The notes beneath the pieces are model-generated. The model had not been told where the DNA came from. It saw nothing but the letters and a program-made list of their open reading frames with translations, and did not search any database. A stretch of DNA of 64,000 nt from Diogma glabrata. Its lineage: Eukaryota > Arthropoda > Insecta > Diptera > Cylindrotomidae. The translations under genes and the position numbers were made by a program. This document shows, in pieces, positions 13,686 to 48,468 of the stretch. Numbering within the stretch: position 1 is the stretch's first letter; every line of letters begins with the position of its first letter. The stretch lies in assembly GCA_963693315.1 (NCBI GenBank), contig OY856186.1, positions 135,228,428-135,292,427 on the forward strand, read 5' to 3'.

Positions 13686-13691
13686 TGCACC
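13686..13691. repeat. Left 6-bp target duplication of the Polinton (TGCACC)
   Basis: It is identical to 37,297-37,302 on the other side of the element. A 6-bp duplication is the hallmark of Polinton integration. Confidence 0.9.
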
Positions 13692-14650: not shown

Positions 14651-14694
14651 GACCATATCGTTTATATCAAAAATATGTGGAACAACCTTTTACC

Positions 14695-17406: not shown

Positions 17407-17437
17407 AGAGGTGAAGCTGTTTTTAAATTTTATTACA

Positions 17438-17929: not shown

Positions 17930-17976
17930 TTTAAAAACTTAAACAAAATGTCTTTCCGGGAGTGTATGAAATCCGA

Positions 17977-19890
17977 ATTAGAGATTATTCTCGAGAATTC
18001 TTTTTCTCGATTTCTCAAGAATTCTCTATAGATTTTTATTTCTCATTTCTCAAGAAATTTTGTTTTATTTCTCGAGATTTTGAAAAAAGTTAAAGACAAA
18101 CAAAAAACACTCATTAAATTTTTTAAACCTTAAATTTAAATTTTTTAAAACTCACTAAGCTTTTCTTGCAGTCAAATGATGAATCGCTGACGAATTATTA
18201 GATTTTTTTCGTATAATGTCCTGTAACGTCCGGTATATTCACCTAAACAATAATAAAACCAATTCATCTTCTGTTTCTAATTCAATAAAAATTTATTTCA
18301 ATACTTTCAGTTCATTTTTACATCAATAATAATTTTTTTAAAATTTTTAAATAATTAACGGCCAGCTAAATTTCGAATATATTATAAAAATAAACGAACG
18401 TACCAATTTTATTTTCATTTCTAACGAACAGATGTCGTTACTCAATTTTTGCTGAATCTTGGTGTTGCACGATTTTCATTAGAAGATGTCAAGGAAATCA
18501 CATTTTTTTGTTTTTAATCAGTTTTTTCGATGTTAAAAATCTGATATAATAAAAATGCATTCCGGTTTTGGTTTTTCAAAAGATCACGTCTTGAAAAAGT
18601 AAAAATAGTAAAAATAATGCAATTAATATAATTTCAATATAAAAGTGATTGTATTGTATGTTTTATCATTATACTTTTTTATAATAATTACTTGTGAAAA
18701 ATAATAGTGAAATTTTGAAAATCGTTTAAACAAAGAAAAGGATAAATTATTCATATATATATAGTGACGAAGAAAATTTTCCTTGATTTTATAAAAATAA
18801 AAATAACCTTGATTTGTTAATGTTAAAAATATTTGTGATACGTCATTTGTCTTAAAACAAAAAGAAATAAAAATTATTGAATAAAGAAAAATAAATGATT
18901 TTACAATCATCATTTCGAATTGGAATAAATAAATAAAATAAAAGGAATAAATCAAATCAAATATAAATAAAATAATTATAATTACTTAAAGGTGACATCA
19001 TCAATAATTAGAAAATGAAATACATTTTTAATATATAAAAATAAAATAATAAAACTAAAGGAAAATATGTGTTGTACGGGATTCTGGGGAACAATTTCGG
19101 ATTTCATCAGTCTCAACGATCTTTAAGATAAGTTTCTATTTTTATATAATTAATGTTACTAAATTATATTATTCTTTGTATTCTTGGTAGTCCTATGCAA
19201 TGATAGGCTAATTTTATAAAAGTTAAGAGATTCCCAAATTTAGGATTCGTGTGGGGACAAACCGCATCCCGTGTATATTTTTTTATATTTTGTTAGCAAA
19301 AGTCCAAGCCATTATACAGTGGCAGAACAGTCCATAAAGGAACGTAAATTTTATGGCCGAATTTCACTTGAAGACTTAATTTAATCGATTAGTTTTATAT
19401 GGGTGACCTAAGTGAGGACCAAAGTTTATTCAAATAGTATATAGTTGTTTTAATTACACCCCCAATAGAAATTATGTATCGCAACACTCTGTAAAAACCG
19501 AGAAAAAAAACAGGAAACAGTTTTTTTTTATTTGATTTCAAAATTCGTAAGAATAGTTTGTTAACTTTGATAGAGCATTTTTACAGGACTGGTGTCCCAT
19601 ACAGAAAATGATTTGACTGTCAAGAAACTTTAACAAAGCGTCCGCCGATTTAAACAGAAACATCTCTCAATTCTTGTTACTTTAAAAAATCCCAGATAGC
19701 TATTGATAATTTGGCGGTTATAATTAGAGAATAGGGTTTATTAGGAGTTATTGGGTTAGAAAATTATTTTTTAATTAAAGAAAATTAATAAAGAATTATC
19801 TCGAGAATTCTTGAGAATTCTCGAGAAACAGATTGCCGTTCTCAATTTTTCTCGAGAAACAGAAAATGTCGCGAAAAGCGTATCTCTAAT
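17977..19890. mobile_element. Non-autonomous DNA transposon in the capsid gene, TSD CCGA
   Basis: Ends are ATTAGAGAT and ATCTCTAAT, flanked by CCGA on both sides (17,973-17,976; 19,891-19,894). Just inside both ends are dense repeats of the palindromic words TCTCGAGAATTC and TTCTCGAGAAA (17,985-18,075 and 19,800-19,860). The interior is AT-rich and has no ORF resembling a transposase. The superfamily is unassigned; a 4-bp duplication is compatible with several. Confidence 0.85.
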
Positions 19891-20566
19891 CCGAGTTGGA
19901 TCTTTTCGCACCTCGTAACATTCAAACAAACATTGTGAAAACCGAAGAAGTTGCCTACAAACCTTTAACTAGTTTAGAAAACCAATCGATCATTGAATTC
20001 GTATGTCATGGACACAGTGATATGTATTTAGATTTATCGTCCATACGCCTATGTGTAAAACTACGTCTAACCAAAAGTAATGGTGCATTGTACACGGATG
20101 CGGATACATCTCAACCAACTGTAATAAATAATATGCTGCATTCACTGTTTCGTCAGGTAAATGTTTCGTTGAATGGAAAAAACATAAATTCCTCAGACGG
20201 TAATTACAGTTATAAAGCGTACATTGAAACATTATTGAATTTTGGTGAGGATGCGAGCAGGACGCATTTAGAGTTATCGGGGTTTTATCCGGATACCAAA
20301 AAACTTGATACCTTACCGCCATCTCAAGAAGGATTGTTGAAAAGACACAGTTTAGTGAAAAATAGTAACATTGTTGAGCTGTACGGAAAAGTGCATGCAG
20401 ATATGTTAAATCAACCGCTATTGCTTTTGAATAATGTTGATGTGAGATTAACTTTTACGCTCAACAAACCTGAATTTTATCTTATGACTGATGCGGCAAT
20501 CGATGACACATCTATAAAAATACTTGAGGCAACAATTTACGTAAAACAATGTGCAATTAATCCTAA

Positions 20567-20934
20567 TAGACTGAGAGCCCGCGACGGCCAGACCTTCGTT
20601 ATTTTATAAAAGCTGAAAGTTTCTCTGCGCATACCCCCTACTCAGGTAGGAACGATTAACGACATATGAAGTTTGGATCATAGTGGCTTTGGCAGGGAGC
20701 AGGTTCCAGAGGGGCCTCCAAAGTTTCGTGAAAGTATAAAAGCTAATTTTTTTATATATTATTCGGGATAGTATTAGAAGTCACGTCACCCAATGCCAGA
20801 CACTTACTATCGTGGAAACCCCCAGCCAGACACCCTTAAACTTTAAAGTTCCTACCTGAGTAGGGGGTATGCGCAGAGAAACTTTCAGCTTTTATAAAAT
20901 AACGAAGGTCTGGCCGTCGCGGGCTCTTAGTCTA
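20567..20934. mobile_element. 368-bp MITE with about 88-bp inverted repeats, TSD TAA
   Basis: Arms (20,567-20,654 and 20,847-20,934) begin TAGACTGAGAGCCCGCGACG and TAGACTAAGAGCCCGCGACG when read inward, and share CATACCCCCTACTCAGGTAG. TAA precedes and follows the element. A 3-bp TWA duplication fits PIF/Harbinger. An alternative reading is a TA duplication. It is much more G+C-rich than its surroundings. Confidence 0.85.
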
Positions 20935-21578
20935 TAATGTTTTAATCGCGCATCATTAGATGCTTGAACAAACAAATGCAAAATATCATTATAAGAGATG
21001 TGAGGTGAAATCATATACGATACCTGCAAGCGGTAACTCCTTAAATTTGGATAATATTGTGTTGGGGCAGATGCCAACAAATTTAATATTTTTTATAATT
21101 GATAATGATGCATACATTGGTTCGAAGAAAAAGAATCCTTACAATTTCAAACACAATAAAATGGCTTCGTGCACTTTTTATGTAAATGGGGCTCCAACAC
21201 CTAGTGCATCTATAACAACCTCATTTACCGGTAGTGATTCGTGTGCGCGTGCATATTCGACAATCTTTTCTACTATGGGTATACTGCACTCACCTCAGGG
21301 CAACCTTATTACAAGAGAAATGTATGCATCCGGCTATTTTATGATCGCGTACGATCTCACACCGGATTTAGCATCCAACGATGGCTGTTCATCTTTAGTC
21401 AATCAAGGAAATATACGTTTTGAGGCCCGTTTTGATGCACCGATTCCTAACACCTTAACATGTTTAATTTACATGGAGTATGTTGCTAGCTTGGAGATTG
21501 ATCAAAATAGAAACATTATTTTAGATCAGCAAAATTATAAATAAACAAACTTCAGATTTAACTACACATTAAGACATT

Positions 21579-22054
21579 ATGAATACAACAGAGTTAATTA
21601 TAGCCCTATAAAAAAATGCTGTCACAAAAAAATATTTTCGTGGTGTGTACGCAATTGATCAACTGCCTAAAACAGTCTTAAATAAACCCGCATGCTACGT
21701 TATTAATACTGATCCATCACACAAACCGGGAACACATTGGGTGGCAATTCATTTTCCCTGTGGAGCTCGTGCCGAGTTTTTTGATTCGTTTGGTAGAAAG
21801 CCATTCGATCGTAGATTTCGCACTTTTTTGTTAAACAACTCAAAGTCATACATTTACAATCCAAAAGAACTACAAAATCGATACAGTTTAATGTGTGGTA
21901 AATATTGCTGTATCTACCTCCATCATAGATGTAGTGGAAAATCAATGAAAAGTTTTTTAACGGATTTGCAACCTATATGTCTGACTACAACGATCGCATC
22001 GTGAATTTTGTCTATAAAAAGTACTTTAACAAAATGGCAAAGAAAAAACGGTGA
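21579..22054 (+). pseudogene. Polinton adenain-like cysteine protease with early stop and frameshift
   Basis: It starts MNTTELIIAL, then TAA at codon 11 (21,609-21,611), then resumes in frame (VTKKYFRGVYAIDQLPK). The core NTDPSHKPGTHWVAIHFP carries the catalytic His, AEFFDSFGR the Asp, and SLMCGKYCCIYLHHRCSG the Cys of the adenovirus-type maturation protease. Near 21,985 the frame shifts, and the terminal block (NDRIVNFVYKKYFN) lies in another frame ending at 22,054. In related viruses this enzyme processes capsid precursors. Not functional as it stands. Confidence 0.85.
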
Positions 22055-22422
22055 ACGAACCAAATAAAAACTCGTCCAGCTTGAAAAACATGATCAAACT
22101 TGTTCAATGTAGGTAAAAGTGTGTTATTAAATTTTTTTAAATCAACTAATAACAAACTTTTATTTTCAGACTTTCAATACCACTGCAGAAAAAAATTCAA
22201 AAAAAAAAAATTTAAAAAAAAAACATTAAAAAAAAAAAATTTAAAAAAAAAAAAAAAAAAAAATTTAAAAAAAAAAATTAAAAAAAAAAATTTAAAAAAA
22301 AAAATAAAAAAAAAAAAATTTAAAATAAAAAATTTAATAAAAAAAAAATTTAATAAAAAAAAATTTAATAAAAACAAAATGAAACAATTTTTTACTAATT
22401 ATATTATTTTTTTTAATATGTC
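22055..22422. other. A-rich low-complexity spacer
   Basis: 22,185-22,380 consists of A runs broken by TTT, so the apparent Lys/Phe/Asn frame through it is a compositional artefact. No gene is seen. Confidence 0.8.
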
Positions 22423-22956
22423 TCAAATATTTATACACAGATTATTATATAAGTCACAAATCAGCTTATTTTTAGACAAAATTGGTAGCTCGTTAAATAA
22501 TCTCGAATAGTTGCATTGATTTGTATTTTCGTGTGTTGGCGTAAAAAAGTCTTTGTAGTCTAGCTTTGTGCAATTTTGTTGAACACATTTTTGCATATAT
22601 AAATTGTAATAGGCTCTTACATCCTTGTAAGTTAGCCTATACCAACTAAATATTGAGTGAATCAAAGGCGCCAACTCCTGCAATCTGCCCCATTCTTCTC
22701 CATTCAATTGTATTTTAAAAGATTTATCGGAAAAGATTACATACTTCTTCCCGTTGTTGTACGATAATCTGTATCTGTTGTCTTTCCTGGCTAACATTTG
22801 TTTGAATTTTTCGATGTCATCTTCCTCAAAATATTGTTGAACTAATCCAATTTGGTTGAAAAATAGATTCCAGTCATCCCAAGCAAAGCAAATAAAATCT
22901 TTATCAGTGATCAACAACAGTTGAGGTTTGAAAATTTCTGTATTGAAGCCAATCAC
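22423..22956 (-). CDS. Unidentified Polinton cargo protein (N-terminally truncated by rearrangement)
   Basis: This minus-strand frame encodes about 177 residues, with GFNTEIFKPQLLLITDKDFI, FAWDDWNLFFNQIGL, EEDDIEKFKQMLARKDNRYR and IHSIFSWYRLTYKDVRAYYN. It is rich in aromatic residues and acidic/basic pairs. I do not recognise the family. Comparison with 23,306-23,557 shows that this copy has lost a 70-base part of its 5' end: a shorter start, MIGFNT, replaces the longer N-terminus of the other copy. It is transcribed away from the plus-strand gene at 23.1 kb. Confidence 0.5.
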   Translation of the reverse strand: MIGFNTEIFKPQLLLITDKDFICFAWDDWNLFFNQIGLVQQYFEEDDIEKFKQMLARKDNRYRLSYNNGKKYVIFSDKSFKIQLNGEEWGRLQELAPLIHSIFSWYRLTYKDVRAYYNLYMQKCVQQNCTKLDYKDFFTPTHENTNQCNYSRLFNELPILSKNKLICDLYNNLCINI

Positions 22957-23092
22957 AATAAAACATGATTTATTGTCGTACTAACCTCTCCATTTTTTAC
23001 TGTGAAGTAGGTACTCAGTTGAAAAGAACTTAATAAACTAAAATCAACTGAATTTATCAACACTTACTATTTGATCAACAGCATTGAACATT

Positions 23093-23100
23093 TATAAATA
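23093..23100 (+). promoter_or_regulatory. TATA box, unit A
   Basis: TATAAATA lies in CATTTATAAATAGCC, upstream of the 23,112 frame. The identical context occurs in unit B. Confidence 0.5.
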
Positions 23101-23111
23101 GCCAGCGTCGT

Positions 23112-23303
23112 GTGGAAGCTATTAGAACAACCAATAACTTCAATAAAAAAGGGGCTCGCCAAGAAGTGCTAAACGAACTACGCAAACAAGCAAGAAAAAA
23201 ATTTCGAAACTGTGATTTCCTCAAACAATTTGTGAAATTTGGCCAAACTAAAACAAATTTTAAAGATTGTATTCTTCTTTTTTTAATTGATTTATTGCTT
23301 TAA
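23112..23303 (+). pseudogene. Truncated copy of the unit-B plus-strand leader frame
   Basis: The open frame contains EVLNELRKQARKKFRNCDFL and ends FLIDLLL with a stop overlapping an ATG (TAATG). No ATG lies within it; it opens at GTG. The downstream protein-coding part is missing, because the duplication breakpoint falls 35 bases after the ATG. It may be untranslated leader rather than protein. Confidence 0.4.
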
Positions 23304-23305
23304 TG

Positions 23306-23557
23306 TTATTTAAGCTTTTTGAAAACTTGATAAATTGGTGTTTCAATTTGGTTGAAAAATAGATACCAGTCACGCCAAGCAAAGCAAATAAAATCTTTAT
23401 CATTGATCAACAACAGCTGAGGTTTGAAAATTTCTGTATTGAAGCCAATTTCAATAAAACATGATTTATTGTCGTTTAAAAAATAAACATAAGATAGCAA
23501 TAAATCTGGTTTACGCATTTCTAGCTTCTTAACTTTTTCCTTAACAAACCTCTCCAT
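23306..23557 (-). pseudogene. 5' fragment of the unidentified minus-strand cargo gene
   Basis: MERFVKEKVKKLEMRKPDLL is the apparent true N-terminus. It continues YVYFLNDNKSCFIEIGFN and matches the gene at 22,956 downward to FFNQI, after which the duplication breakpoint truncates it. It is divergently oriented to the gene at 23.67 kb, sharing the promoter interval. Confidence 0.55.
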
Positions 23558-23654
23558 TTTTACTGTCTGTGAAGAACTCAGTTGAAAAGACTTAATAAAC
23601 TAAAATCAAATGAATTTAACAACACTTACTATTTGATCAACAGCATTGAACATT

Positions 23655-23662
23655 TATAAATA
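23655..23662 (+). promoter_or_regulatory. TATA box, unit B
   Basis: TATAAATA lies in CATTTATAAATAGCC, about 200 bases upstream of the ATG of the transglutaminase-like gene. Confidence 0.5.
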
Positions 23663-23673
23663 GCCAACGTCGC

Positions 23674-23862
23674 GTGGAAGCTATTAGAACAACCAATAAC
23701 TTTAATCAAAACGGAGCGCCAAGAAGTGATAAACGAATTACACAAACAAGCAAGAAAAAATTTCGAAATCGTGATTTCCTCAAACAATTTGTGAAATTTG
23801 ACCAAACTAAAACAAATTTTGAAGATTGTATTCTTCTTTTCTTAATTGATTTATTGCTTTAA
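23674..23862 (+). other. Upstream frame overlapping the next ATG (TAATG)
   Basis: The open frame from GTG contains KFRNRDFLKQFVKFDQTKTN and ends FLIDLLL. Its TAA shares its last A with the ATG at 23,862. It has no ATG, so it is leader, an exon of a spliced start, or the N-terminal part of the next gene reached by frameshift. Both duplicated units keep the TAATG overlap. Confidence 0.4.
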
Positions 23863-24449
23863 TGCTATTTAAGCTTTTTGAAAACTTGATAAATTGGTGT
23901 TACTCTCAACCATCAATATCATTTGTTATTTGTACGTCCGCGAATATAATTGCTATGATTTTGAATAATAATTTAAAACTAAATCTGGTATTGGTAAATT
24001 TAATCTCCGAAATAATTTCGCAAGAATTTATTAGTGCACGTAAATATGGTGTTTGTCTTCCAGCTAACTTAATCCTGTGGGCAGCATTAAAAAAATATAA
24101 CTTAGAATCTAAATTAGTTGTTGGACACCTTCAATACAATAAAAACAATACTGTTATAAATATCGTCGTACACTTTTGGAATGAATTTAATAATAAGATA
24201 GTAGATCCAACACGAAAAATTACCGAATTTTACACTGGAGAAACTGAAAAGGGCATATACACCTATTTGCCTAATCAACAGCAGCCGTCCAATATGGAGG
24301 AAAAAATCATGCTTAAAATTTTCAACCAGTGTTTAGCCAAATTTTCAACCAATTCAAATATTTACTGGAATATTGCACCAAAATGTTTAAAAGAGCTAAA
24401 ATATAAAATTGAGTGCAGAATAAAAGATGTGATTGGGAAAAATATTTAA
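23862..24449 (+). CDS. Putative transglutaminase/NAT-like cysteine enzyme, Polinton cargo
   Basis: A 195-residue protein. Its core has KYGVCLPANLILWAALKKYN (Cys65 at the start of a helix), then NIVVHFWNEFNNKIVDPTRK (His104, Asp115). Cys-helix, beta-His and Asp-Pro-Thr in this spacing is the catalytic arrangement of transglutaminase-like and arylamine N-acetyltransferase-like folds. The family is not one I know from standard Polinton gene sets. The start at 23,862 is the first ATG. The frame is intact to TAA at 24,447. Function is an inference from motif spacing alone; it could act on proteins or be inactive. Confidence 0.5.
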   Translation: MLFKLFENLINWCYSQPSISFVICTSANIIAMILNNNLKLNLVLVNLISEIISQEFISARKYGVCLPANLILWAALKKYNLESKLVVGHLQYNKNNTVINIVVHFWNEFNNKIVDPTRKITEFYTGETEKGIYTYLPNQQQPSNMEEKIMLKIFNQCLAKFSTNSNIYWNIAPKCLKELKYKIECRIKDVIGKNI

Positions 24450-24840
24450 AAACGATTTGATTCAAATAAAAATAAAAAATTTTAAATGCTTTAATAATAA
24501 TAATTACGTGTTAGAGTTTTTATTTGGCCTAATCGGATCGGCTGTCGTCGCCGTTGGTGTTGTTGTTGTTGCCGCAGCAGCTGCTGCTCCAGTCTGTGAA
24601 TTTGCAGCTGCAACAGGGCGAAACGTGAATTTGAATAAGTCGACGAAGATCTTGGAGATGTGTGTTTTGCTGTAAACGGTATGAACAACAAATCACCATC
24701 GTTTTCTTCACTCGAAGTTGCAAACTATAGTTGGTCCTCTTCATTGCCATAATTTCCTTCTGGACTGCCTTCTTCATTATCGTTATGATATTCAGACTCT
24801 TCTAAATCAACTTCTTCCTCGGATTCTTCATTCTAACTAT
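24450..24840 (-). pseudogene. Decayed acidic/Gln-rich protein gene
   Basis: Read leftward from about 24,835: an acidic segment (NEESEEEVDLEESEYHNDNE, EEGSPEGNYGNEEDQL), a TAG, then in the same frame SSEENDGDLLFIPFTAKHTS and a Gln-rich stretch (LEQQLLRQQQQHQ) to about 24,540. 24,833-24,960 partly duplicates the acidic part with a small deletion. I do not recognise the family. An Ala-rich frame on the opposite strand is the shadow of the Gln repeat. Confidence 0.4.
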
Positions 24841-25300
24841 AACTCGTTCTACCAAATATCTGTTTTTACCAAAATACCAGTCATGTCGCAAACACAGGAA
24901 TTTCCATAATTTCCTTCTGGATTGCCTTCTTCATTATCGATATTCAGGCTCTTCTGAATTCAGCCAATGGCCAAGCCATTTTGTCAAAGTTTTGTCACAA
25001 GCTATCATTTTGTCAATAAAAAACAATAAAAAATAAAAAATTAAAATGAAAATAAAAAACAAAACAAAAAACAAAACATAAAAAAAACGAAGAAAAAAAA
25101 AATGAAAAAAAAAATTAACAAAAAAAGAACAAAAAAAAAACGAAGAAAAAAAAATTAACAAAACAAAAAAAACAAAAAAAAAAATATAAAAAAAAAAAAT
25201 TAAACAAAAAAACCAACTTACAAAAAAAAAATTCAGATACTTCAGAAAAAATTCCAGTCAAGCCAGCACGTTCAGCTAAGGCCAAACCATTTTTCCAAAG
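24841..25300. other. Duplicated remnants and A-rich tract
   Basis: 25,020-25,215 is an A-rich homopolymer-like tract. Minus-strand words at 24,960-25,010 and 25,255-25,310 are duplicates of each other (TGTGACAAAACTTTGACAAA against TGTGACAATCTTTGGAAAAA). This suggests a duplicated, decayed coding segment around the tract. Confidence 0.4.
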
Positions 25301-28300
25301 ATTGTCACAATGCTGAGCCCAGTCTAAACGTCTTCAAAGATTTTAACAGACGTTTAGAATCATTTAAAACGCGGCCAAAAAAATATATTCACAAAAACCG
25401 CTTTAATTGAGTGATGCAGGGTTTCTAATCCTGCCAAGAAATGATGGCAAATCAAGTTTCTCTTGCTGTATTGTAGAAGAATGGGGTTCAGAAGAACAAC
25501 CAATGGACGAAGATTTTTGATTTTAAATTATTTGTGGTGATGATTTTAACCAAATAAACATCTATAGTTGCAAAATTGTCTACTTAAGCCTACCCAAGTA
25601 GCATTTTTGACATAAATTTTAAAATTATAACGGGCACATGTTGTATAATTCATCTATAGATATTGTCAATGTAGCAAAATTTTTCAATTTAAAGGTATGG
25701 TTTGAAGTTTCTCAGAAAAGTTGTGCGTGGAGACCCACCGCTCGGAAGAAGTGAAATTTCGTAATGTGGAAATAAAAACATATTACATTCTTTTAAAAGT
25801 CATTAATTATCAGCGAACTCATACTGTTCATATTCTTTAAGACAAACTTTATTAACATTGCTTACAATTCACAATTGATCGCAGCTTTTAATTATCATTT
25901 TCGAGTGGAGAAATCAATAACATCCAAATCAATAACATTTACAATGGGCTTATGAAAACTAAAGTAAGATACGAAATGTTTGAGTTCTATTTTTTCAATA
26001 TTTCTTGCAAAAACCTGCATTTTTTTCTCGTTTAAAATATTTCAACATAGAATGATAAGAAAATGAGTCATCTATCAGGAGTCTTCTATCAAAATGTTAA
26101 TGAAGCAACAAAAACCTATAGAAGCAAAATACACGATAATATGCTTTAAAAATATTTTTCTGAGTAATTATAGTATTTATCAAGAGACGCGGTAGTGTCT
26201 TGCGCGCCATGTTTTGAAAGACACTACTAGTATATATACTGTGCACCGAATAGGTTTTAAAGGTTAAAATTTTCATTTCGAATAATTTGCATTTTTTCTA
26301 CAACTGTATTCAAAGTTATCAATAAAAGTATATCTTATTTAACTATATGTTTCTCATTAGTAAAAAAAAAGTCAGCATTCATGCTTTTTTCTGAAAGTTT
26401 ATAAAATCAAAATTTTGCTTTCCCAAACTTGTAGTAAAATTAAAATGTTTTTACAAATTTTTATACCACGTTGGTAGCATTGCTATGAATGTAGTAATTT
26501 AGTATCATTTTGGCGAATTTTCAAAAACCAACCAAATGTACAGAATTGAAAAACACAAAATTATGTGAATTGAAATTTATTATCCCTCAATATTGGTAAT
26601 ATTTAACAACAGTTAAAAAACTTAAACACGAACCCAGATTAGTTTGCAAACATATACATAGTTGTTTTCGACAAAAATATTTGTTATGTTTGTATCCAGA
26701 AAACCCATCAAATGTTTTATTAATATATTAAATGGAAGTTGGTAATTATAAAGATATTAGAAAAAATAATATATTTAGAATATGCTTTCAGTAAAAAGAC
26801 CTATTATTGATGTGTTAAGAAAACGAAGTTGTGAAAACATGTATTTGGTCTATTATGTAAATTTGTTATCTGAGAGAACCCAACAAATGTTATATCGATA
26901 ATAAATTTTAATTTTTATTTCATTTTATTTTAGAACGTTGGTAGTTATTTTGAAGTGATGAGATTAAAAAATAATTTAGTAGGCTTTAAAATTTTGAGTT
27001 TTTAAGCTTTATGAGATATAAAGAAAAGAATTTGAGAAAATTTTATTATTATTTTAAGGGTTCCGTACTTTGAAAAAATAGAACAAAACCCTTATGGTGA
27101 GGACTTGATTGTTTATTATCCATTATTCACAACGACTTTCTCACTGAAAATGAAAATATATGTATTTACGTATATTTATGTGGTAAGATAAGGCGAAAAT
27201 GACAAATATGTGCCGATTTCGAGATTGAGGTGATATATAACCGTAAAAACTGAAATTTTTTAAAACTTTCAGTCAATCATAGACTATAAAGTTTATGGAA
27301 GACACCAATGGTACTTGGCTGAACATAATCAAGAATTTTTAAAAAAATTGTTTAATTGCGAAACACTTAATTTCACATCTTTTTTCGCACAATGTTGTTT
27401 TGTTTATTATTTATTTAGAGTAAATAACAATCGATTTAAGCTTTTATGCTATCCTCAAGAACTTTTATAAAATTGTTATGTTAATTTTTTAAAATTATTA
27501 GTCAAAGACTATAGATTTTATGTGTGTGTTTCCGTTGTATGTAATAATTTTTTTAATTTTCGAATGCATTGCCTTAGACTTATTTTCGAATATTTCTTTT
27601 ACTTTTTCATGAGTTGTTCATGTCATGAGTTGAGACCTGTTTATCAAAAAACGATACTTTTATTTTTTAAAATATTGCACCTAGGTCCTAGTGTGCTGAG
27701 CGTATATCATGATATCATTCTCGATGTCGTGTGTAAACGACATTTATACACTCTTGCTATCTGACTGCGTATTTATTATTTCAATTTTAACTTTTGTTGA
27801 TTTTAAATTAATTCACCAGAGATATAACACTGTCTATACGTCCGTATGTCCTGAACAGTCCGGTTTTTTGATGATACACTTTGCCGAAACAATTTTGCAC
27901 CAGGGAAAGAACCGTTAGACCCGTTTGACGTGCGTCAACTTAGGTCGTCGGGAGGATCAGAGCAAAATAAAAGACACTATTTAAATTCAAACTGATTCTA
28001 CCATTTATTATGAAAAATCATTTCTTTTATATTATTTCAAATACTTCCCCATCATATAATTATGTATATAAATTATGTATTTACAAATTATTTATTCCCC
28101 ACTTAAAACTTAAATCAATTAATATATTATGTATTCCCACTTAAATCAATTAATATACATATTTATATTGTTTTAAATTTACTTATTGCAAAAATGCAAT
28201 AACAACAAAAATGTACATAAAAGTGTTTTCAATTTATTTGCTCTATATTTTTCTTCAAATAAAATGTACAAGTCATCATAAGCATTTTAACTTTTATTTA

Positions 28301-28629
28301 AATTGTTTCAATGTTTTGAAACATAATATATGTGATGACACGTTTTGAATCTAAGTTCATAAACTTTATTTGTTTACAATTGACGATACGAAATAATGAA
28401 ATGTTTGTTTGTTATTTTGTTTTGACAAAATTTATGTCGTCATGGGAATTTCTTTATAACTTATTTATATAGGTTTTGATTTGGGTAAGTTGCTGAGTAG
28501 ACGTAGTAGTATCTCTACACTAGATTGATAAAAAATCGAGAGTAAAGTTCTCTGCAGAAAACATTTTATATGGATAATAATAATTTGATTCTCCCATATT
28601 ATATTATAACTTTACAAAAAACAGTCAAA
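25301..28629. other. Geneless Polinton interior
   Basis: Polymerase B or integrase would be expected in this part, but no long frame exists. 25,394-25,519 keeps a short coding-looking tail (DAGFLILPRNDGKSSFSCCI ending QPMDEDF), perhaps the end of a lost gene. 25,514-25,722 recurs in direct orientation at 29,797-30,000. The rest is AT-rich without recognisable content. Small frames at 27.5-27.9 kb look random. Confidence 0.5.
25514..25722. repeat. Dispersed repeat, copy 1
   Basis: It aligns with 29,797-30,000, sharing CATCTATAGTTGCAAAATT, GCATTTTTGACATAAATTTT and GGTATGGTTTGAAGTTTCTC. The last phrase also occurs at 42,725 and 43,236, marking it as part of a dispersed family. Confidence 0.7.
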
Positions 28630-29765
28630 TCGTCGCAAAAACAACCAAAAGGCTGTAAAAAAGCCGCGCCATGTTTTTCTTTAGCTTGAAACTATCATTT
28701 TAACTATAACAAATTAAATTCTTGTATCTTATTCTTTACAAAAACTTCTCAAATCATTAAGCACTAGTTATTATATTTCTTAATGGCATTTTGTTTTCTA
28801 AACATCTAGCTAAATTATATAATTTAAGTAAGACTCTAGAACTACATATCATAATTCTAAAATATATAATAAATATGCACATTATATTAAAATTTATTTA
28901 AACAGAGGAAATACAATTTATTTTTTTTTCTATAAAAACCGCTCGCTTTCACTTACATATTTCTTGAACAAAAACCTTGGCGCGACCTTTTCTTAATATG
29001 ACAATAAAGCCAACCGCATAGTGACTATGGTTGACCCATAGTAATATTAGTATAAACATTATATTGAAATAACCATTGATAAAATAGCAATATTAAATGA
29101 ATCTCAATTAATGTTAAAATTCAGTACGAAAATAAATTTATTGATAATGTTATTTCATAGTCATCGTTATATTGTTACAGTTGCCATTTGCTAAATATTC
29201 TTACAGCAAATCATGTCTAATATAAAATTAAGCATACGGCAATAATATAAAGGGAATTTCAAATACATTACTATACTTCAGGAAAATTGTAGAAAATATG
29301 ATACTGACTTATTAATATAATTAGAAGTCCACTGTTGAATTCATCGGCTTTTCACAGTCGTCTGACAATAGACCTTACGAATGAGATTATTAAATAAATT
29401 GAGAAAAGGTCGCTCCAAGGTTTTTGTTCAACAAATATGTAAGTGAAAGCGAGCGGTTTTTATAGAAAAAAAAATAAATTGTATTTCCTCTGTTTAAATA
29501 AATTTTAATATAATGTGCATATTTATTATATATTTTAGAATTATGATATGTAGTTCTAGAGTCTTACTTAAATTATATAATTTAGCTAGATGTTTAGAAA
29601 ACAAAATGCCATTAAGAAATATAATAACTAGTGCTTAATGATTTGAGAAGTTTTTGTAAAGAATAAGATACAAGAATTAAATTTGTTATAGTTAAAATGA
29701 TAGTTTCAAGCTAAAGAAAAACATGGCGCGGCTTTTTTACAGCCTTTTGGTTGTTTTTGCGACGA
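28630..29765. mobile_element. Foldback element with about 366-bp inverted arms
   Basis: 28,630-28,995 is the near-perfect reverse complement of 29,400-29,765: TCGTCGCAAAAACAACCAAA at the left, GGTTGTTTTTGCGACGA at the right, and inner ends near GGCGCGACCTTTTCT and AGAAAAGGTCGCTCC. The loop is about 405 bp. No coding content is seen. No clear target duplication is seen beyond a possible AT. Confidence 0.85.
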
Positions 29766-29796
29766 TAGGATTTATTACAGTATTTTTGGGGTTATT

Positions 29797-30000
29797 TTTG
29801 ATTTTAAATTATGTGTGGAGCTGATTTTAACCAAGTAAACATCTATAGTTGCAAAATTATCTACATAAGCCTACTCAAGCAGCATTTTTGACATAAATTT
29901 TAAAATAATCACAGTCAAATGTTGTATAATTCTTCTATAGATATTGTTAATGTAGCAAAATTTTTTAATTGAAAGGTATGGTTTGAAGTTTCTCAGAAAA
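29797..30000. repeat. Dispersed repeat, copy 2
   Basis: The partner of 25,514-25,722. Its last part, with the following 77 bases (GGTTTGAAGTTTCTCAGAAA to ATCTAGCAACTACA), is duplicated in tandem at 29,981-30,133. Confidence 0.7.
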
Positions 30001-30158
30001 AATGGTTCAGATACTGGATTTTCATTTGTAAATTCCATATCATCTAGCAACTACAAGGTTTGAAGTTTCTCAGAAAAAATGGTTCAGATACTGGATTTTC
30101 ATTTGTAAATTCCATATCATCTAGCAACTACATAGTTTAGTTCTGGTTTACTGTCTAG

Positions 30159-30647
30159 CAACCAAATTCTGTAACTGTGAAGTGGTGAAGTGTTAAAAAT
30201 TTCTTCATTTCGATTTTATCATTAATTTTTCATCATTTTACCATTTTTGCGATTCTATATGCGATTAGAGTGTTAAAAAATCTAATAGCAAGCCGCGCAC
30301 TGTCAAACGTCAAATATACATAAAATTAAATGTTTATTTTAAGTTTCAACACAATTTGAACGTAAATTTTTACAAATTTAGATATATACAACTATTTTAG
30401 AAATTAAATTTTTAAAATTAATCTGCATTTAATTTAGAAATGCAATTTTTAAAAATCAAATCGCATGGACGTTTTGCTGTTTTTTGACATAATATCAATA
30501 ACAACAAAAGAAACGATTTCATTTCATTGCCAAACAAAACGTCAGTGTTAACTTTATTGTTTTAAAACTTCACTCACTTAGATATTTTTGCGGTGAAGTG
30601 ATAAAAAACTTATCATTTTCCCACTTCACAGTTACAGAATTTGGCTG
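30159..30647. mobile_element. 489-bp MITE, TSD TAG, CAACCAAATTCTGTAACTG family
   Basis: Inverted ends are CAACCAAATTCTGTAACTG and CAGCCAAATTCTGTAACTG when read inward, then GTGAAGTGG. TAG lies at 30,156-30,158 and 30,648-30,650. An empty version of the site is present downstream (31,377-31,384, TCTAGATC), which confirms both the ends and the 3-bp duplication. A 106-bp relative is at 41,222-41,327. No coding content. Confidence 0.9.
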
Positions 30648-30790
30648 TAGATCAACTATTCATTTTGTTAGAAAGGGAAAGCGCATATACATTAAGGAAT
30701 TCGTATGATAAATGTGGGATACGTATGATAAATCTAGTATTTAAGAACGATACAAGGCTGAAATAATTTACATTAGTAAAAAACAATATA

Positions 30791-31193
30791 CATGGTAAGT
30801 TAAAATTGAAATTTTAATTTTATTTCGTTAATTGATTTATTTTTTATATTTAGATGTCTAGTTTGGTAGGAGTAAAAAAATATATATGTCCATACAATGT
30901 GAATCATCAAATAACCTACAGAAACTTCTTCCGGCACATTAACACTTGTAAAGACAAGCACCCGTCAGGAATACAGGTTATTATGTGTAAATATAATATT
31001 TACCACGTAATTCCAAAAGAAGACTATGAGGTAATTTGATAACTTAATACTCAAATTAATAAATATTTTGATTTAACATTTTTTCTTCTATTTACAGATT
31101 CATCTTCTTAATTGCCCTGATCGGGTGGTTTGGAAAGAAGTATTTGATTCATTCAAAAATCACGCCACACAAGACGAATGGTGCAGCGAATGA
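30791..31193 (+). CDS. GTSF1/Asterix-like double CHHC zinc-finger protein, three exons
   Basis: A 90-residue protein. The ATG at 30,854 is followed by an exon to 31,030, a GT-AG intron (31,031-31,097) and a last exon ending TGA at 31,193. An upstream exon probably ends CATG at 30,794 (intron 30,795-30,853), offering a second in-register ATG. Finger 1 is Cys12-x5-His18-x9-His28-x3-Cys32 (CPYNVNHQITYRNFFRHINTC without its tail). Finger 2 is Cys45-x5-His51-x9-His61-x3-Cys65, whose third ligand appears only after splicing. Two tandem CHHC fingers with NHQI in the first are the signature of GTSF1/Asterix proteins, which help Piwi-clade Argonautes silence transposons. AATAAA motifs follow near 31,265-31,280. 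The gene lies inside a Polinton, between direct repeats. Confidence 0.8.
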
Positions 31194-31360
31194 AAAAAAC
31201 TTAGGCCCAGTTATTTTTAATAATCATAATAGAAAAAACTTTAATAATTAACTATAAAATAAAATAAAAGAAATAATAAATTTGAAAAATATATAATGTT
31301 AGCAAAAAATGATGTCTTTTTATTTATCAAACCCTTTGAAAAAGTCTCTTAAATATGGTT

Positions 31361-31425
31361 CGTTCTTGTTTACTGTCTAGATCAACTATCGATTTGTTAG
31401 AAAGGGAAAGCGCATACACTTAAAG
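31361..31425. repeat. Direct repeat bracketing the GTSF1-like gene (right copy)
   Basis: TTCTTGTTTACTGTCTAGATCA through TTGTTAGAAAGGGAAAGCGC matches 30,140-30,158 plus 30,648-30,705 (the left copy, split by the 489-bp MITE). The gene therefore sits between two copies of about 65 bases. Confidence 0.8.
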
Positions 31426-32300
31426 ATAGCTAACTGTAAATCTTATACCTTACTGACTGTTTTAACCGCCATAAAAAATTAATTTGTTTTGGCCCCGTCT
31501 GATTCTTATCATTTCTGTGTCTCAATTTACCCCAAAGCGCATTAAAAAGAAATGAATCCCTTCATGCTCAAAACTCCCTAATGAAGTTTTCCTTTTCAAT
31601 TTGAGTGGAAACATTTGACGGTCAATCACTCGCTTCTTGTTTTAACTTAAGGAAGCAATTCATATATTCTGCGAACACGCCTCCACACTTATTTCCTACT
31701 AAGAAAGATAATCAATCTACAAATTTAATCGACACATGTCGTCCAACACAATTCATATTTATTCTTAAGAAAAAAAGTTTTAATTCAACAAAAAATTAAA
31801 AATTACCATACATGACAAGTTTTTATAGTATTTTTTATTTACTTATTTTCATGTGTCATCACAACGACAAAAAAAAAAAAAAACATTGAAAACAATTTAC
31901 TATACTGCGAATAACATTTACTAATTCCTTAAGAGCTCATCAAATGCGATACCAAATTTATATTTCTCATCTTTTATATTATTAATTTTCTGCCATATTT
32001 TTCTTGTTGCATTATTGCATAACATCAGAAATAACTTGACCGACAGACCGCGGTAAAAAAATTAAAATCTTACTTAATTATTAGCGTAAAAAAAAAGCCA
32101 AGCACCGCGAATAAACAAGTTTTTATTCATTTTTCAACTTCATACAACAAAAAAACAATGGTTTAATAGATATAGATCTTCGCAAGTTATATATTCATAC
32201 GTGAAAAATCAATTAACACATATATGAAAATGTGTGAGAGCCGCTATCTATTTATAATATTATAAAAATTAGACCACACAGCGAGTTTGAAAAAAGAAAA
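31426..32300. other. Geneless AT-rich stretch
   Basis: No coding signal is found; a frame at 31,605-31,799 looks accidental. An A run lies at 31,870. Confidence 0.5.
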
Positions 32301-32415
32301 ACGGTATAAATATAATTGCATAAAATCAATCTCAAATCATTTTTGGTCATTTTTCTTTTTTTGGGAGTTTGAAATAAGAAAAATAGTATATAAATAACTG
32401 CATAAAACCAATCTC
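32280..32415 (+). promoter_or_regulatory. Duplicated promoter-like module with two TATA boxes
   Basis: Two diverged copies (from GCGAGTTTGAAAAAAG and GGGAGTTTGAAATAAG) each contain a TATA box (TATAAATA 32,305-32,312; TATATAAATA 32,387-32,396) followed by ACTGCATAAAACCAATCTC or its variant. The second lies about 100 bases ahead of the ATG at 32,500. Confidence 0.55.
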
Positions 32416-32499
32416 GAAATCATAATCAGAAAAACTAAGGTGAACAACACATCACTTGAGAATTTATTTTGCAAAACATAACTAAAACCAAAATTCATA

Positions 32500-32922
32500 A
32501 TGGTAAGTAATCCTCACAAGCTATACTAATTAATTTATTCCATTAATTGTTTTTTAATTTTCTAGGCTTCTTCTTTTATCGAATCGTTAAACAGCGCAGC
32601 ACGGACTGTGCAAAGCCAAATATTAAAGCCAGAAGAATTGGGGCTTAACATCGAGCGCGAGGTGACCAGCTACAAGCTGGTAAAGACAAAATTTGGGGAC
32701 CGGGTTGTGTTGGTCATCAAAGATAGTGGGAATTTATATTTGCCGCCAAGACTAACAAAATTATTTGTTGGACAAGAAGCCAACATCACAAATATGCTGA
32801 TCAAATTCATCGGTAGAGATGTTTCCAAATTGAACGCGCCATTATATGAGTTTCGTGTGAAACCAATGGCGTTATTGGTTGAAGACGAAACACAATTCGA
32901 GATGGATGGTCAGCTGTTTTAA
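32500..32922 (+). CDS. Unidentified Polinton cargo protein with intron after the ATG
   Basis: The ATG (32,500-32,502) is followed at once by an intron (GTAAGT at 32,503 to CTAG at 32,565). The rest (32,566-32,922) is open in the same frame, giving about 119 residues that begin MASSFIESLNSAARTV. Downstream blocks are TSYKLVKTKFGDRVVLVIKD and NLYLPPRLTKLFVGQEANIT. It is predicted to be beta-rich; the TKFGDRVVLVIKD strand pattern could belong to an OB-like fold, but that is a guess. If the start is not spliced, the first ATG in frame would be 32,608. The frame is intact and the codon use less AT-skewed than its neighbours. Confidence 0.6.
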
Positions 32923-33112
32923 TAAAAAATTAATGTATTAAGACCAGGCATCCGAGACAAGCGAAAATCTTTCATAAACATCTCTTTAATAGAAATTGTG
33001 TTTATTTTTTATCATTGGATAACAAATGCTGATACATACAAACAGAAGCGTCGACAACAATAACAACAACAAAATTCTATCTATTTATAATATTATATTT
33101 TTTTATTTTCTC

Positions 33113-33123
33113 TCAATGCAATT
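33113..33123. repeat. Target duplication of the LINE (TCAATGCAATT), left
   Basis: Identical to 36,127-36,137. Confidence 0.8.
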
Positions 33124-36100
33124 TTTTTTTTTTTTTTTTTTTTAATAAAATGTGTTGTGTAATAGGGTTTAGAAGATGTGTCACAACAACACATAAATAC
33201 CTTTTAAGACCTAGGTCTAGACCTGGGTCCCACAACAACTGGCGTTCTGAGGTGTAGATTAACGCTTTTTTTAAACATCTGTGGGTTGAAGCCACCTGAG
33301 ACTAAGTGTTCCGGCAAACTATTCCATTTGTACGCAGTTCGGACAAAGAAGTATCTCTGCGATCTGCCAGTATGACAGCGCGGGATCTTTACCGTTTCAC
33401 TGGTTGCGGCAGCCGATTGCCGAGTGGAACGGGGGTAAGAATAAGTTTGAGGCATGATGCCGCTGATTTCATCTGAGCACTGCTGATGACGATATTTGTA
33501 AAAAACAACGAGGTCAGCAACAGTGCGACGATGTTGTAGGGAATCAAGTTTTGATGTCAAAGTTCGATCACCTACAATTCGTATAGCTCGCTTTTGAACA
33601 GAGTCCAAGAGGGCCAAGACAGTACTCCATACAGGGACGAATATAGGACTTATAAACATGGAGCAATTGGTATAGAGTGAAAAATTTTTTGCATCTATTT
33701 AGGAGGCCGAGTTTTTTAGACGCGCTTTTTGCCATCGCCATTACATGATCGTTCCAGAGTAGGTCATTTGAAACTGTGACACCCAATAAACGAATGTTTT
33801 TACATTCACCTATTGGTTCATCACACATACTAAATAAAATATCTTTGGGGAACTCGGTCTTTAATCTGGAAACAATCAACAGCTGTGTTTTGGTGGAGTT
33901 GAAATTGACAAGGTTTTGGTCACCCCAGTCGGCGACTTTATTCAGGTCTTTGTTCACGTTTATGGTAGCGTCTCTCCGGGCAGGATTAATTCGTTCGTGC
34001 ATTTTACCTTTTGAAGGAAGGGGCTCGAACGACTTGTGCAGAGTACTATCATCTGCAAAACTATTTATTGGATTACTGGTGATTTTCAACAATTCGTTGA
34101 TATAAATAAAAAATAGGGTTGGGGACAATACTGAGCCTTGGGGTACACCAGCGTTAATTAGTTTAGACTCAGAAGAATATCCGTCTAAGGTTACCGAAAT
34201 GTATCGGTCGGATAGAAAATTTTGAATCAGCTTCACAACATTGGGATGAAAACCGTACGCAACGAGCTTGTTGATTAAGTTGGCATGCCAGACTCGATCG
34301 AATGCCTTGGAGATGTCTAAAGCGATAACGTATGTTTCACCACCTTTATCAAGTATGCTGTTCCAACAATGCGCTACATAGTTTAATAGATCGGTAGTTG
34401 ATCTTTTGTTTCGAAAACCGTATTGGCTGTCGGATATTAAATGATTTTCTTCCAGAAATTTTGAAATATGTGTATTAATATAATGCTCATAGACTTTGGA
34501 TAGGACCGATAGTAAAGCTATTGGCCTATAATTTGAGATATCGGATTATGGTCCCTTTTTGGGGACGGGCTGGACATTTGCCAACTTCCAGCACGAGGGA
34601 AATATACCAGATTTGTAGGATTGGTAGAATATTTTAGTTAAAGTTGGTGCAAGTTCTTTGGAAAAGGTTTTTAAAATAATGGGTGGAATATTGTCCATTC
34701 CTGATGCTTTGTTGATGTTTAACCCCTTTAAAAGTTTAGCGACTATTTTGGGTTTGAAGTGAAGTTCATTCATATTAACTCCTGAAGACTGGATTTGGGG
34801 TATTTCTTTAGGAGTTTCCAAAACAGTGGAGTTCAGAGCAAAGCGTTCAGCGAACAAGTTAGCTTTTCTTGCGGGATCATTGACGATTGGTGATTTAATC
34901 GATAATAGGGGGAATAGAAAATTTTGTACCAGAATTTAAAGAATTAATGGCACTGTAGAAACTCTTGTCAGAAACAGACATAGACGTAAGTTTTGAGGCT
35001 TTCGCTCTGTCAATTTCGGACTTTTCGTTTGAGATAATCTGATTAGATATTTTGTTGGCCTTTAGATATTGGGATCGATTAGTGGGAGTTTTGTTATGAA
35101 TCCAAATATTAAATGATCTACGTTTGTTTCTAAGTGCCGTTTTGGCAGCTTTCGAATACAAGTATTTTTGTTTGGGTTTTACTATGGAGAAAGGGACAAA
35201 TTTATTGATAGCAAATTGGATGGTTTCTGTAAAGTTTTGAGCAGAAACATTTACATTGTCAGTGTAAAAACAATGACGGTCGAAAGGGAAACCATGGAAA
35301 AAATTTTGAAGACCACTCTTATCCATTTTTGAGTAGTGAAATATTTTACGGGGTTTGGGAGCTGTAGTTTTAAGTAAATCAATTTTGATAACTGATGAGA
35401 TTAAATAATGATCAGAATTTCCAATACTACCTTTCGCAACATCGACACTCGTAATATCTGGCATTGTGGTAAGATAGAGATCTAGTAGAAAACTATTATC
35501 ACCGCCATTACGGGGAGTGAAAGTCGGGCTTTTAACAATTTGGAATAGGCCCTGAGACGCGGCAAAAATTTCTGCCAGTTTTCCACTATTGTCAACATCG
35601 TCGGTCGATTTGGAGAATTCCAACCATGATTTGTTGTGGACGTTGAAGTCACCGGTAACGATAACTTCACAATTAGGGGACTTTGCTCTAATCTCGTCCA
35701 TAATTTTTGTCAGTATATTAAAAAAGTTTGGGTTACGTTTGTTGGGGGACCGGTATAAAGCTATTGTAAAAAAAGTCATTTCTGGAAGACAAATCTTTAA
35801 AACCATTGTATTGAAGCCGTCACCGTATAGTTCAAAATTTTTTGAAGCGCGTGTACGCAACACTCTCATGAATGAATCCGCATACGCTCTGATGGAGTTT
35901 GAAAGCTAATTCGAGCCTATATTTGGAATTAAGCGATTCTATAAAGAGAAAATTTTCAGAAACTTGTGTTTCTGTAAGGAATTTAATGTTCGGTTTGTCG
36001 TGCTCAAGATGATGTTTCACGTGGTCATGGTTAGCGTTCAATCCGCAGATGTTTTGAACATGCATTTTAAAATTTTTTATTGATTCATATATGTTTGGTC

Positions 36101-36126
36101 CCTGCAAATTCCAAATTGAATTAATT
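33124..36126 (-). mobile_element. Jockey-type LINE, 5'-truncated, in the Polinton
   Basis: A poly-T run at 33,122-33,143 is the poly-A tail on the minus strand. The element extends to 36,126, where the 11-bp duplication TCAATGCAATT recurs. It lacks ORF1 and starts just upstream of the endonuclease domain. Its 3' UTR (ACACAACACATTTTATT before the tail) is shared with fragments at 41.5 and 44.3 kb. Confidence 0.9.
33204..36069 (-). pseudogene. LINE ORF2: endonuclease and reverse transcriptase, frameshifted
   Basis: Read leftward: APE-type endonuclease start MHVQNICGLNANHDHVKHHL (about 36,065), FLTETQV, a frameshift near 35,850, then YRSPNKRNPNFFNILTKIMD, TGDFNVHNKSWLEF and IGNSDHYLISS (metal and His/Asp catalytic motifs). 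The RT follows: KASGMDNIPPIILKTF (34,720), a stop near 34,545, GVPQGSVLSPTLFFIYINEL (34,145) and the catalytic FADDS (34,060). The C-terminal cysteine-poor tail ends at 33,204. Three or four frame breaks make it inactive, but domain order is complete. Jockey/CR1-group assignment is from the RT motifs. Confidence 0.85.
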
Positions 36127-36137
36127 TCAATGCAATT

Positions 36138-36367
36138 GCTGTTGTCATTGCTTTTTCCTTTTTTTCTTTGAGCTTCGCGAGAAGCTAGAGACAAATGAAG
36201 AAGCCGAAACACAGTTCCAACAGGATGTGCAGCAATTTTGATAACTAACAATTTTTTTACAATTAATGTATAAAATATAATGTTTTTTCTATAAAATAAA
36301 TTCGTTATGAAAAATTGATTAATTTGTTCTTTTTTCGTTCAACATATTTTTAAAATAAATGAAGAAG
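36138..36367. other. Polinton sequence between LINE and right terminal repeat
   Basis: AT-rich, no clear gene. Confidence 0.5.
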
Positions 36368-37296
36368 CCATTTCGAGCATCTATTTACAATTTTTCTTTA
36401 ATCTAAAATTCCAAATAAAAAGTTTTTGTTTTCTAACACATCATAATTTTTGTTCAAATCACATCACAATATGTTCTAATTCTTCTGGTCGCTTATATAA
36501 CAACCAGAAAACTAGAACAACACATGTGCCCCAATGAAAAAATCAAAATCTTACAAAATCAAATCTTACATAACAAACAGAAAAACAACAGATTAAAACA
36601 ACCAACAAAAACAATTTTGTTACATACAAAAAAAAATATATCAATAAAATCTTCACAATTTTTTGTCAACGTTTTTTTTTTATTCATTAAATTTATTTTA
36701 TTCGTAAAATTTAAACGACCTCCCGCAAAAATTATTTTGCAAAATAAGATTAAAACACAAACTCATTCTTTTTAAAAATCAAAAATCATATGATTTGTTT
36801 TTTCTCTCAATGCAATTGAATTAATTTCAGCTGCTTTTTCATATTTTGCTTTCTCATTCTGTTTTATAGATAGTATGACTAAATCCGTTTTTTTTATTTC
36901 TTATTAGATAACATATTACCATATTTTTTCTTATTAGGTAACAAAAAAAAATAATGAAAATCATTTTTCTTTAGTTTCTTTCAACAACATTCTAAATGAA
37001 ATTGTTGTAGCCGAAGTAAAAAAAATAAATTATATTCACTTTCGTTTTTCTCAATTTTTTTAAAACATTTGACGACCTCACACGAACATACATCTTTTAC
37101 ATTGAATAATCTATTTTTAAAACAAAAAAGATACTGTTCATATATTCACTCCTGAAAAAAAATCAATGCTTTTTTCCTTTTTTTCTTTCAATGTTCGATA
37201 CTCCCTCATTTCTTATTTTTTTTCATGAAAATGTTCGATATTCCCTCATTTCTTATTTTTTTCATGAAAATGTGACGATACCCCCACTACACTACT
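36368..37296 (-). repeat. Right terminal inverted repeat of the Polinton
   Basis: Reverse complement of 13,692-14,650. It ends CCCCCACTACACTACT at 37,296. Confidence 0.9.
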
Positions 37297-37302
37297 TGCA
37301 CC
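37297..37302. repeat. Right 6-bp target duplication of the Polinton (TGCACC)
   Basis: Identical to 13,686-13,691. Confidence 0.9.
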
Positions 37303-47036: not shown

Positions 47037-47077
47037 AACCCTCATACCTTGTGGCAGCAATGTTACACCTCCTCTAA

Positions 47078-47363: not shown

Positions 47364-47383
47364 TGTAACAATTAGTTTGCAGC

Positions 47384-48349: not shown

Positions 48350-48468
48350 ATCTTTTTTTTTTCTTTATGTTTCTTTCTAATATATATATTATATTACTTT
48401 TAACTCATATTTTGTCCTTTTGTACCCGGCTTGAGACATCTCATGGGTGCTGGGTCTTCCCCACGATT

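Follow-up and report, generated by a model that had tools for sequence, protein, structure and literature searches.

A GTSF1/Asterix-like gene is carried as cargo by a Polinton-type element in the genome of Diogma glabrata. The element lies in the stretch of DNA analysed here (the window, 64,000 nucleotides of contig OY856186.1), and this anatomy alone, a GTSF-like gene in a Polinton-type element, is nearly certain. The wider proposal, which includes the anatomy and adds that the captured, element-kept minimal GTSF competes with host GTSF1 and weakens silencing, stands at an even chance. The gene was resolved into the following parts.

30792..30853, plus strand: upstream ATG (30792-30794) and a possible 59-bp first intron (30795-30853), GT..AG ends seen, splicing predicted
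30854..31030, plus strand: first coding exon with finger 1 and most of finger 2, from the splicing model, Pfam and the structure match
30887..30949, plus strand: CHHC finger 1, C12 to C32, read from the spliced frame
30986..31115, plus strand: CHHC finger 2, C45 to C65, split by the intron, read from the spliced frame
31031..31097, plus strand: intron of 67 bp, GT..AG, phase 0, with the site and phase of the host GTSF1 intron
31098..31193, plus strand: last coding exon including the stop codon (TGA, 31191-31193)
31179..31181, plus strand: codon of Trp87 in the terminal DEWCSE, aligned to the acidic-Trp motif of GTSF1 proteins

The predicted spliced product has 90 residues in a stop-free frame, and a second ATG at the start of the exon at 30854 gives a one-residue ambiguity of the protein start. 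Two tandem CHHC fingers with the motif CPX4HX9HX3C are the hallmark of GTSF1/Asterix proteins in the available text of PMC9539491. The ligands of the element protein are C12-x5-H18-x9-H28-x3-C32 in finger 1 and C45-x5-H51-x9-H61-x3-C65 in finger 2; both spacings match the published motif exactly, with CP in finger 1 and CK in finger 2. The sequence-only reading had described two such fingers, the second completed only by removal of the 67-bp intron, and a frame without stop. All of this was borne out in the spliced frame, which is open through to the TGA.

The assignment to GTSF1/Asterix made in that reading also held. The protein matched the CHHC finger family in Pfam (zf-U11-48K, E 1.8e-9, 37.7 bits against a cut-off of 21.1) in two stretches, and its best solved-structure match was mouse GTSF1 (6x46, E 3.8e-9), followed by a second GTSF1 structure (9nhb, E 1.6e-4). 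The U11-48K finger reached only E 0.2 against the 90-residue protein in the same comparison, and no TRM13 chain was present among the solved-structure matches. A profile search gave 1.7e-30 for GTSF1 vs 2.9e-5 for U11-48K, with a profile that itself contained GTSF1 rows. A U11-48K or TRM13 relative was ruled out by these scores and by the presence of two fingers, and a chance CHHC motif by the Pfam and structure E-values. Past the fingers, the element sequence DEWCSE aligned with EDNWDD of the host, EENWED of a moth and DEDWDK of a mammal, a motif with a putative role in binding PIWI or Vreteno. The element protein stops three residues past the tryptophan and does not have the conserved insect tail (Y-x-P ... 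TPSERK-type), so it falls outside the long insect GTSF1 proteins as defined by this tail. The tail does not define the whole GTSF family, since short host paralogues are also without it.

The surrounding element is of Polinton type with a capsid module, and its features in the window are as follows.

13686..13691, unstranded: left copy of the 6-bp target-site duplication TGCACC
13692..37296, unstranded: Polinton-type element carrying the GTSF-like gene, with inverted repeats, 6-bp duplication and capsid-module open reading frames (ORFs)
13692..14590, plus strand: left terminal inverted repeat, first letters AGTAGTGTAGTGGGGG; aligned to the right repeat with 869 matches, 14 mismatches and 31 gap bases
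14635..15159, plus strand: packaging ATPase (A32-like), Pfam PF04665 E 9.3e-7, 29 bits against a cut-off of 22.8
19890..20609, plus strand: N-terminal part of a probable major capsid protein, Capsid_N E 0.015, under its cut-off
20559-20942: inverted-repeat element where the capsid frame breaks
20960..21544, plus strand: probable continuation of the capsid gene, from position only
21612..22004, plus strand: adenain-type maturation protease, Pfam PF00770 E 4.4e-5, 23.7 bits against a cut-off of 21.3
26181..29764, unstranded: later insertion including the palindrome 28629-29766, absent from related copies such as L002 and L008
30159..30647, unstranded: later MITE-like insertion upstream of the GTSF-like gene, absent from the copies aligned there
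32566..32922, plus strand: 118-aa Polinton ORF (ORF118) adjoining the right end, linked to GTSF in a divergent lineage too
33130..36340 (approximate), minus strand: non-LTR retrotransposon insertion separating ORF118 from the right repeat, with RVT_1 at E 1.5e-34 and endonuclease at E 6.7e-14
36399..37296, minus strand: right terminal inverted repeat, pairing with the left repeat
37297..37302, unstranded: right copy of the 6-bp target-site duplication TGCACC

The gene had been described as lying inside a Polinton, and it is indeed enclosed by terminal inverted repeats of about 0.9 kb each and by the 6-bp duplication, in an element whose ATPase and protease score above their Pfam cut-offs. The window ATPase is shorter than the open frames of 237-248 aa found at many other genomic places. 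The structure model of the capsid piece had a pLDDT of 46.5; its weak best matches include double jelly-roll capsids, none with E below 0.001, and the ORF at 20960..21544 gave no informative family or structure match. Among the 73 window ORFs of at least 55 aa, the 21 that were scanned gave no match to a protein-primed DNA polymerase B or a retroviral-type integrase; the window copy may thus be incomplete and have lost these genes.

Other repeats were also observed in the window. An imperfect direct repeat of about 37 bp, at 30649 and 31379, brackets the GTSF gene and could mark entry of a cassette. Pieces of Polinton ORFs are duplicated in tandem at 22848-23901 (repeat families D11, D13 and D14), and a tandem array with a 77-bp unit and about ten copies occupies 3438-4430. 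Gypsy-like retrotransposon ORFs are situated at 46651-62163, with near-identical segments about 6.2 and 15.2 kb apart, and the 200 N of the window fall within one open frame of this group.

The gene is multicopy. A search of the 1.33 Gb genome for the gene returned at least 157 matches, about 150 of them listed (best 150 of 454 candidates scored), and the element-protein and mouse-GTSF1 searches together revealed at least 169 distinct GTSF places on chromosomes and contigs, two host genes left out. In these 169 listed places, 104 form 52 inverted (minus, plus) pairs less than 16 kb apart, with a median distance of 6754 bp. Three pairs read in detail (L031-L033) showed long inverted arms of Polinton right-half sequence, and the spacing and orientation of the remaining pairs suggest that they are likewise palindromic. 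The large, non-autonomous Polinton derivative at C3:405923195-405936738 (L035, L031, L036) has arms about 99-100% complementary, with one GTSF gene per arm pointing outward. It possesses terminal repeats related to those of the window and a 6-bp duplication, ACCGTA, on either side, which indicates that it moved as a unit. In a fourth pair (L034) the second exon is truncated. With a gene copy in either arm, such palindromic derivatives are of structural interest in their own right.

Linkage to Polinton DNA was analysed with 3.2 kb of surrounding sequence at 40 places, one of them the window. Beyond the gene, 39 of these contain 150 bp or more of window-Polinton DNA, and the 40th (L043) adjoins a homologue of the 118-aa ORF with 42% identity. 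For an unpaired copy at C1:204323889, the next 6 kb upstream contained no Polinton sequence, which suggests that this copy is cut or interrupted there. Copies lying only outside Polintons would speak against cargo status; here 39 of the 40 places are Polinton-linked and the other one stands beside a divergent Polinton ORF. As the gene is multicopy in Polinton sequence and a separate host GTSF1 exists, it is cargo of the element and not a host gene. The sequence-only reading had also considered a domesticated gene, and this was not supported, for the gene occurs in many copies and travels with the element.

The host GTSF1, identified by the mouse GTSF1 search, is a separate three-exon gene at C3:424443118 (L040), and a short, apparently intronless host GTSF paralogue is present at C1:125556842 (L039). 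As that search scored the best 150 of 182 candidates, mostly element copies, additional host paralogues may exist. The closest named full-length relative of the host GTSF1, among 137 proteins returned, was from Pseudolycoriella hygida, with 45% identity over 154 residues. The short paralogue most resembles an 80-residue Hermetia illucens protein (P0127), and both are without the tail and without the terminal acidic-Trp motif. The earlier reading had asked whether the window gene is the sole host orthologue; the own GTSF1 of the host at C3:424443118 shows that it is not. A host orthologue at the window locus was ruled out in the same way, the window gene being multicopy.

The first intron of host GTSF1 is in phase 0 and interrupts the x9 spacer of finger 2 after its eighth residue, and the 67-bp intron of the element gene occupies the identical point in the same phase. 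An intron at the host site suggests that the element gene most likely descends from a GTSF1 gene captured as DNA. Because the intron is retained, capture did not proceed via a spliced RNA copy, and a retrocopy was ruled out. Over the fingers the element protein shows 30% identity to the host GTSF1, 36% to the short paralogue and 33% to mouse, and 25-36% to the four other GTSF proteins compared. The range of 30-36% points to a capture that is old or from another lineage; recent capture from host GTSF1 was ruled out by this identity although the intron site agrees.

The gene was also found in a divergent Polinton lineage. In two copies, L043 (C4:167492486) and L069 (C3:229564708), only the gene and short flanks match the window.

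30780..31341, plus strand: stretch common to the window and the GTSF copies L043 and L069, 85% identical

The neighbouring homologues of the 118-aa ORF show 42-46% amino-acid identity. The relative orientation of GTSF and this ORF in L043 is opposite to that of the window, and L069 contains additional partial copies of the GTSF cassette. GTSF is 87% identical in amino acids (filtered row) where the adjoining ORF is 42% identical. This pattern could reflect stronger constraint on the gene than on its surroundings; exchange of the cassette between Polinton lineages is favoured, as the intron is kept equally well.

The many copies make a ready natural experiment on selection. The set comprised 45 distinct copies from 78 rows (some places occur twice) projected onto the window frame, and recruitment by protein likeness biases it towards intact ones. 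Each zinc ligand is retained in 41 to 45 of the 45 copies, all eight ligands in 35 and the GT..AG intron ends in 35. W87 was found in 37 of the 39 copies with data, six further copies being without data at this site. Ligands, splice sites, absence of stops and W87 are all intact in 23 of the 45, missing data counted as failure. Codon variants private to one copy comprised 15 synonymous, 76 replacement and 8 stop changes, and those present in two or more copies 30, 49 and 0, respectively (Fisher P 0.00085; 0.0018 without stops). Random mutation of the gene would give about 18-25% synonymous changes. The private variants therefore look neutral and the shared ones filtered, which fits working lineages under selection and individual copies in decay.

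The sequence-only reading had proposed comparing copies in the genome for purifying selection (dN/dS below 1). In deep-lineage pairs dN/dS was 0.25-0.36, and in closer pairs it rose to as much as about 1. One deep pair, L001 vs L071, gave dS 0.606 and dN 0.159, with 28 of 47 changes at third positions (P 0.0002); this excess was missing in 5 of the 13 pairs tested. The mean dN/dS for all 210 pairs of 21 representatives was 0.43. Between copies, intron and exon sequences are conserved to about the same degree, and this and the values of the closer pairs were counted against the competitor reading. The donor is AT instead of GT in four derivative copies (L023-L026). Taken as a whole, the evidence for selection is real but modest.

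The fate of the gene was compared with that of the ATPase, for which the best 150 of 698 candidates were scored. Among the places listed, 43 ATPase matches have a listed GTSF no more than 4 kb away, which in 42 cases is on the other strand, the arrangement of the palindromic derivatives. At least one stop interrupts every one of these 43 ATPase remnants, whereas the paired GTSF exon contains one in 1 of 42 cases; just past 4 kb there is a stop-free remnant at C3:228088043 (4.1 kb) and one broken remnant (4.7 kb). Since a single founder is the probable source of the ATPase stops and the ATPase match is a longer target than the GTSF exon, the contrast is only suggestive and does not amount to a test. 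At six places among the matches listed, including the window, an open ATPase is followed 9-23 kb downstream by a GTSF on the same strand. In three of these the GTSF copy (L014, L015, L016) has a CT donor, L014 and L015 being nearly identical and possibly one locus. ATPase and GTSF within one bounded element were seen for the window only. No listed GTSF lies within 30 kb of 97 of the 150 listed ATPase places, 89 of them open (GTSF: best 150 of 454), hinting that the gene may be optional in Polintons.

In the proposed mechanism, a Polinton would long ago have captured a GTSF1 gene as genomic DNA, intron included, from a donor in the ancestry of the Diogma glabrata host or from another animal. 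Its product would be a minimal GTSF with two RNA-binding-type fingers, no C-terminal tail and the acidic-Trp motif, which engages the PIWI machinery in insect GTSF proteins. In the germline this protein might take the position of the full host protein within complexes of PIWI or Vreteno; displacement of host GTSF1 would weaken silencing of the element, and the element would thereby retain the gene. The sequence-only reading had likewise put forward a decoy or modulator of host silencing, a role that stays a proposal. The available part of PMC10711660 describes a conserved W99 that Bombyx Gtsf1L requires to bind Vreteno and that also enhances its binding of Ago3. For fly Asterix, the accessible text of PMC9539491 states that removal of the C-terminal half abolishes rescue and that finger mutants still bind Piwi. 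A docking motif without the tail would correspond to the classical form of a competitor. The competitor reading is backed by the family match, the anatomy, the filtering of shared variants, the deep dN/dS, the mostly open GTSF beside broken ATPase remnants, the kept acidic-Trp motif and the absent tail. It is weakened by the short host paralogues, which are tail-less too, and by the short-tailed Bombyx Gtsf1L, which acts within piRNA biogenesis and supports the pathway according to the sections available of PMC10711660. A more specific version, in which the truncated GTSF1 is an anti-piRNA factor and the palindromic satellites spread because each carries two gene copies, is tentative and falls well short of an even chance. 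If true, it would represent a transposon-encoded suppressor made from the silencing machinery itself.

The main rival of the competitor reading, rather unlikely in itself, is a passive hitchhiker: the gene would have been captured by chance near the Polinton right end, and a well-transposing palindromic derivative would have amplified it without any function. Equal conservation of introns and exons speaks for this, and many listed copies have equal match scores, so that the amplification looks recent. The AT donor in the four derivative copies, the 22 of 45 distinct copies that do not pass every integrity check (missing data counted as failure) and the 89 open ATPase places without a listed GTSF within 30 kb, among the matches listed, agree with it as well. 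Depletion of replacements and stops among variants common to several copies does not, nor does the dN/dS of 0.25-0.36 in deep lineages. The GTSF mostly open beside a broken ATPase remnant and the presence of the gene in divergent Polinton lineages with very different neighbours also argue against a functionless passenger. Two further alternatives, an assembly artefact and an ordinary GTSF paralogue of the host situated near a Polinton, are scarcely credible: the repeat-rich setting is all that speaks for them, and they are already contradicted by the multicopy, element-linked distribution. The gene is enclosed by terminal repeats and a target duplication, occurs at no fewer than 169 places on chromosomes and contigs, has a host GTSF1 elsewhere, and is borne by a derivative with a 6-bp duplication of its own.

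Two other functions were weighed against competition. The element GTSF might boost PIWI slicing or amplification, so that competitors of the element are silenced or its self-harm is limited. Retention of both fingers and the acidic-Trp motif would suit such a pro-silencing modulator, and so would the role of the short-tailed Bombyx Gtsf1L in piRNA biogenesis, as far as given in PMC10711660; the benefit to the element is less direct, and this explanation was considered improbable. Still less probable is a role outside the piRNA pathway, in which the protein would bind structured RNA during expression or replication of the element and the likeness to GTSF1 would reflect ancestry only. According to the text available of PMC9539491, binding of structured RNA is common to the CHHC fingers of all three known families, and over the fingers the element protein is only 25-36% identical to the other four GTSF proteins in the comparison. 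Against such a role stands the acidic-Trp motif: it lies outside the fingers, and its retention in 37 of the 39 copies with data would not be accounted for by RNA binding alone. If the product does interfere with PIWI complexes, as the competitor reading proposes, it would be direct evidence of protein-level transposon counter-defence, an open question in transposon-host conflict.

Relatives of the element protein were sought in wider collections. Peptide-pattern scans of IMG/VR revealed no relative of the GTSF-like gene and none of the capsid piece, comparison with PHROGs gave no informative match, and a single-protein search of a set of 5.8 billion proteins returned no relative of the element protein. 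When the same set was searched with a profile that included element copies, 21 proteins were listed; none of them is closely similar to the element protein, and the named ones carried vertebrate or insect annotations. Among the 137 proteins returned, the best matches were 30-41% identical. One protein of Anolis carolinensis (P0058) combines a reverse transcriptase domain with the CHHC finger family, perhaps through an artefact of the gene model. Full-text searches of the literature revealed no description of a GTSF1/Asterix gene carried by an element, the available portions of PMC13269885 and PMC11071296 included, and no precedent was found for a mobile element carrying a core cofactor of an animal transposon-silencing pathway.

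The element and its cargo share distinct features with several known systems. With GTSF1/Asterix, the protein shares two tandem CHHC fingers of equal spacing, the acidic-Trp motif past the fingers and the host intron site and phase; it differs in that the gene is multicopy and mobile, and the protein ends three residues past the tryptophan without a TPSERK-type tail. The short GTSF1-like paralogues (Hermetia P0127, the short Diogma paralogue and Bombyx Gtsf1L) are likewise small, with fingers and little or no tail, but they are not element-borne as far as seen, and in comparison with P0127 and the Diogma paralogue the terminal acidic-Trp motif is kept only in the element protein. Like Polinton/Maverick elements and adintoviruses, the element has inverted repeats, a 6-bp duplication, an A32-like ATPase, an adenain-type protease and a probable capsid gene. 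It is distinguished from these by the GTSF cargo and the palindromic derivatives with cargo in both arms, and no polymerase B or integrase was found among the 21 of 73 window ORFs scanned. Large mobile DNA is known to capture host genes, as in poxvirus capture by LINE-1, Helitron captures and Starships, in which, as here, a host gene is carried by a mobile element. The surprise is the cargo itself, a cofactor of transposon silencing: unlike in the known captures, the gene comes from the transposon-silencing machinery and has retained its intron.
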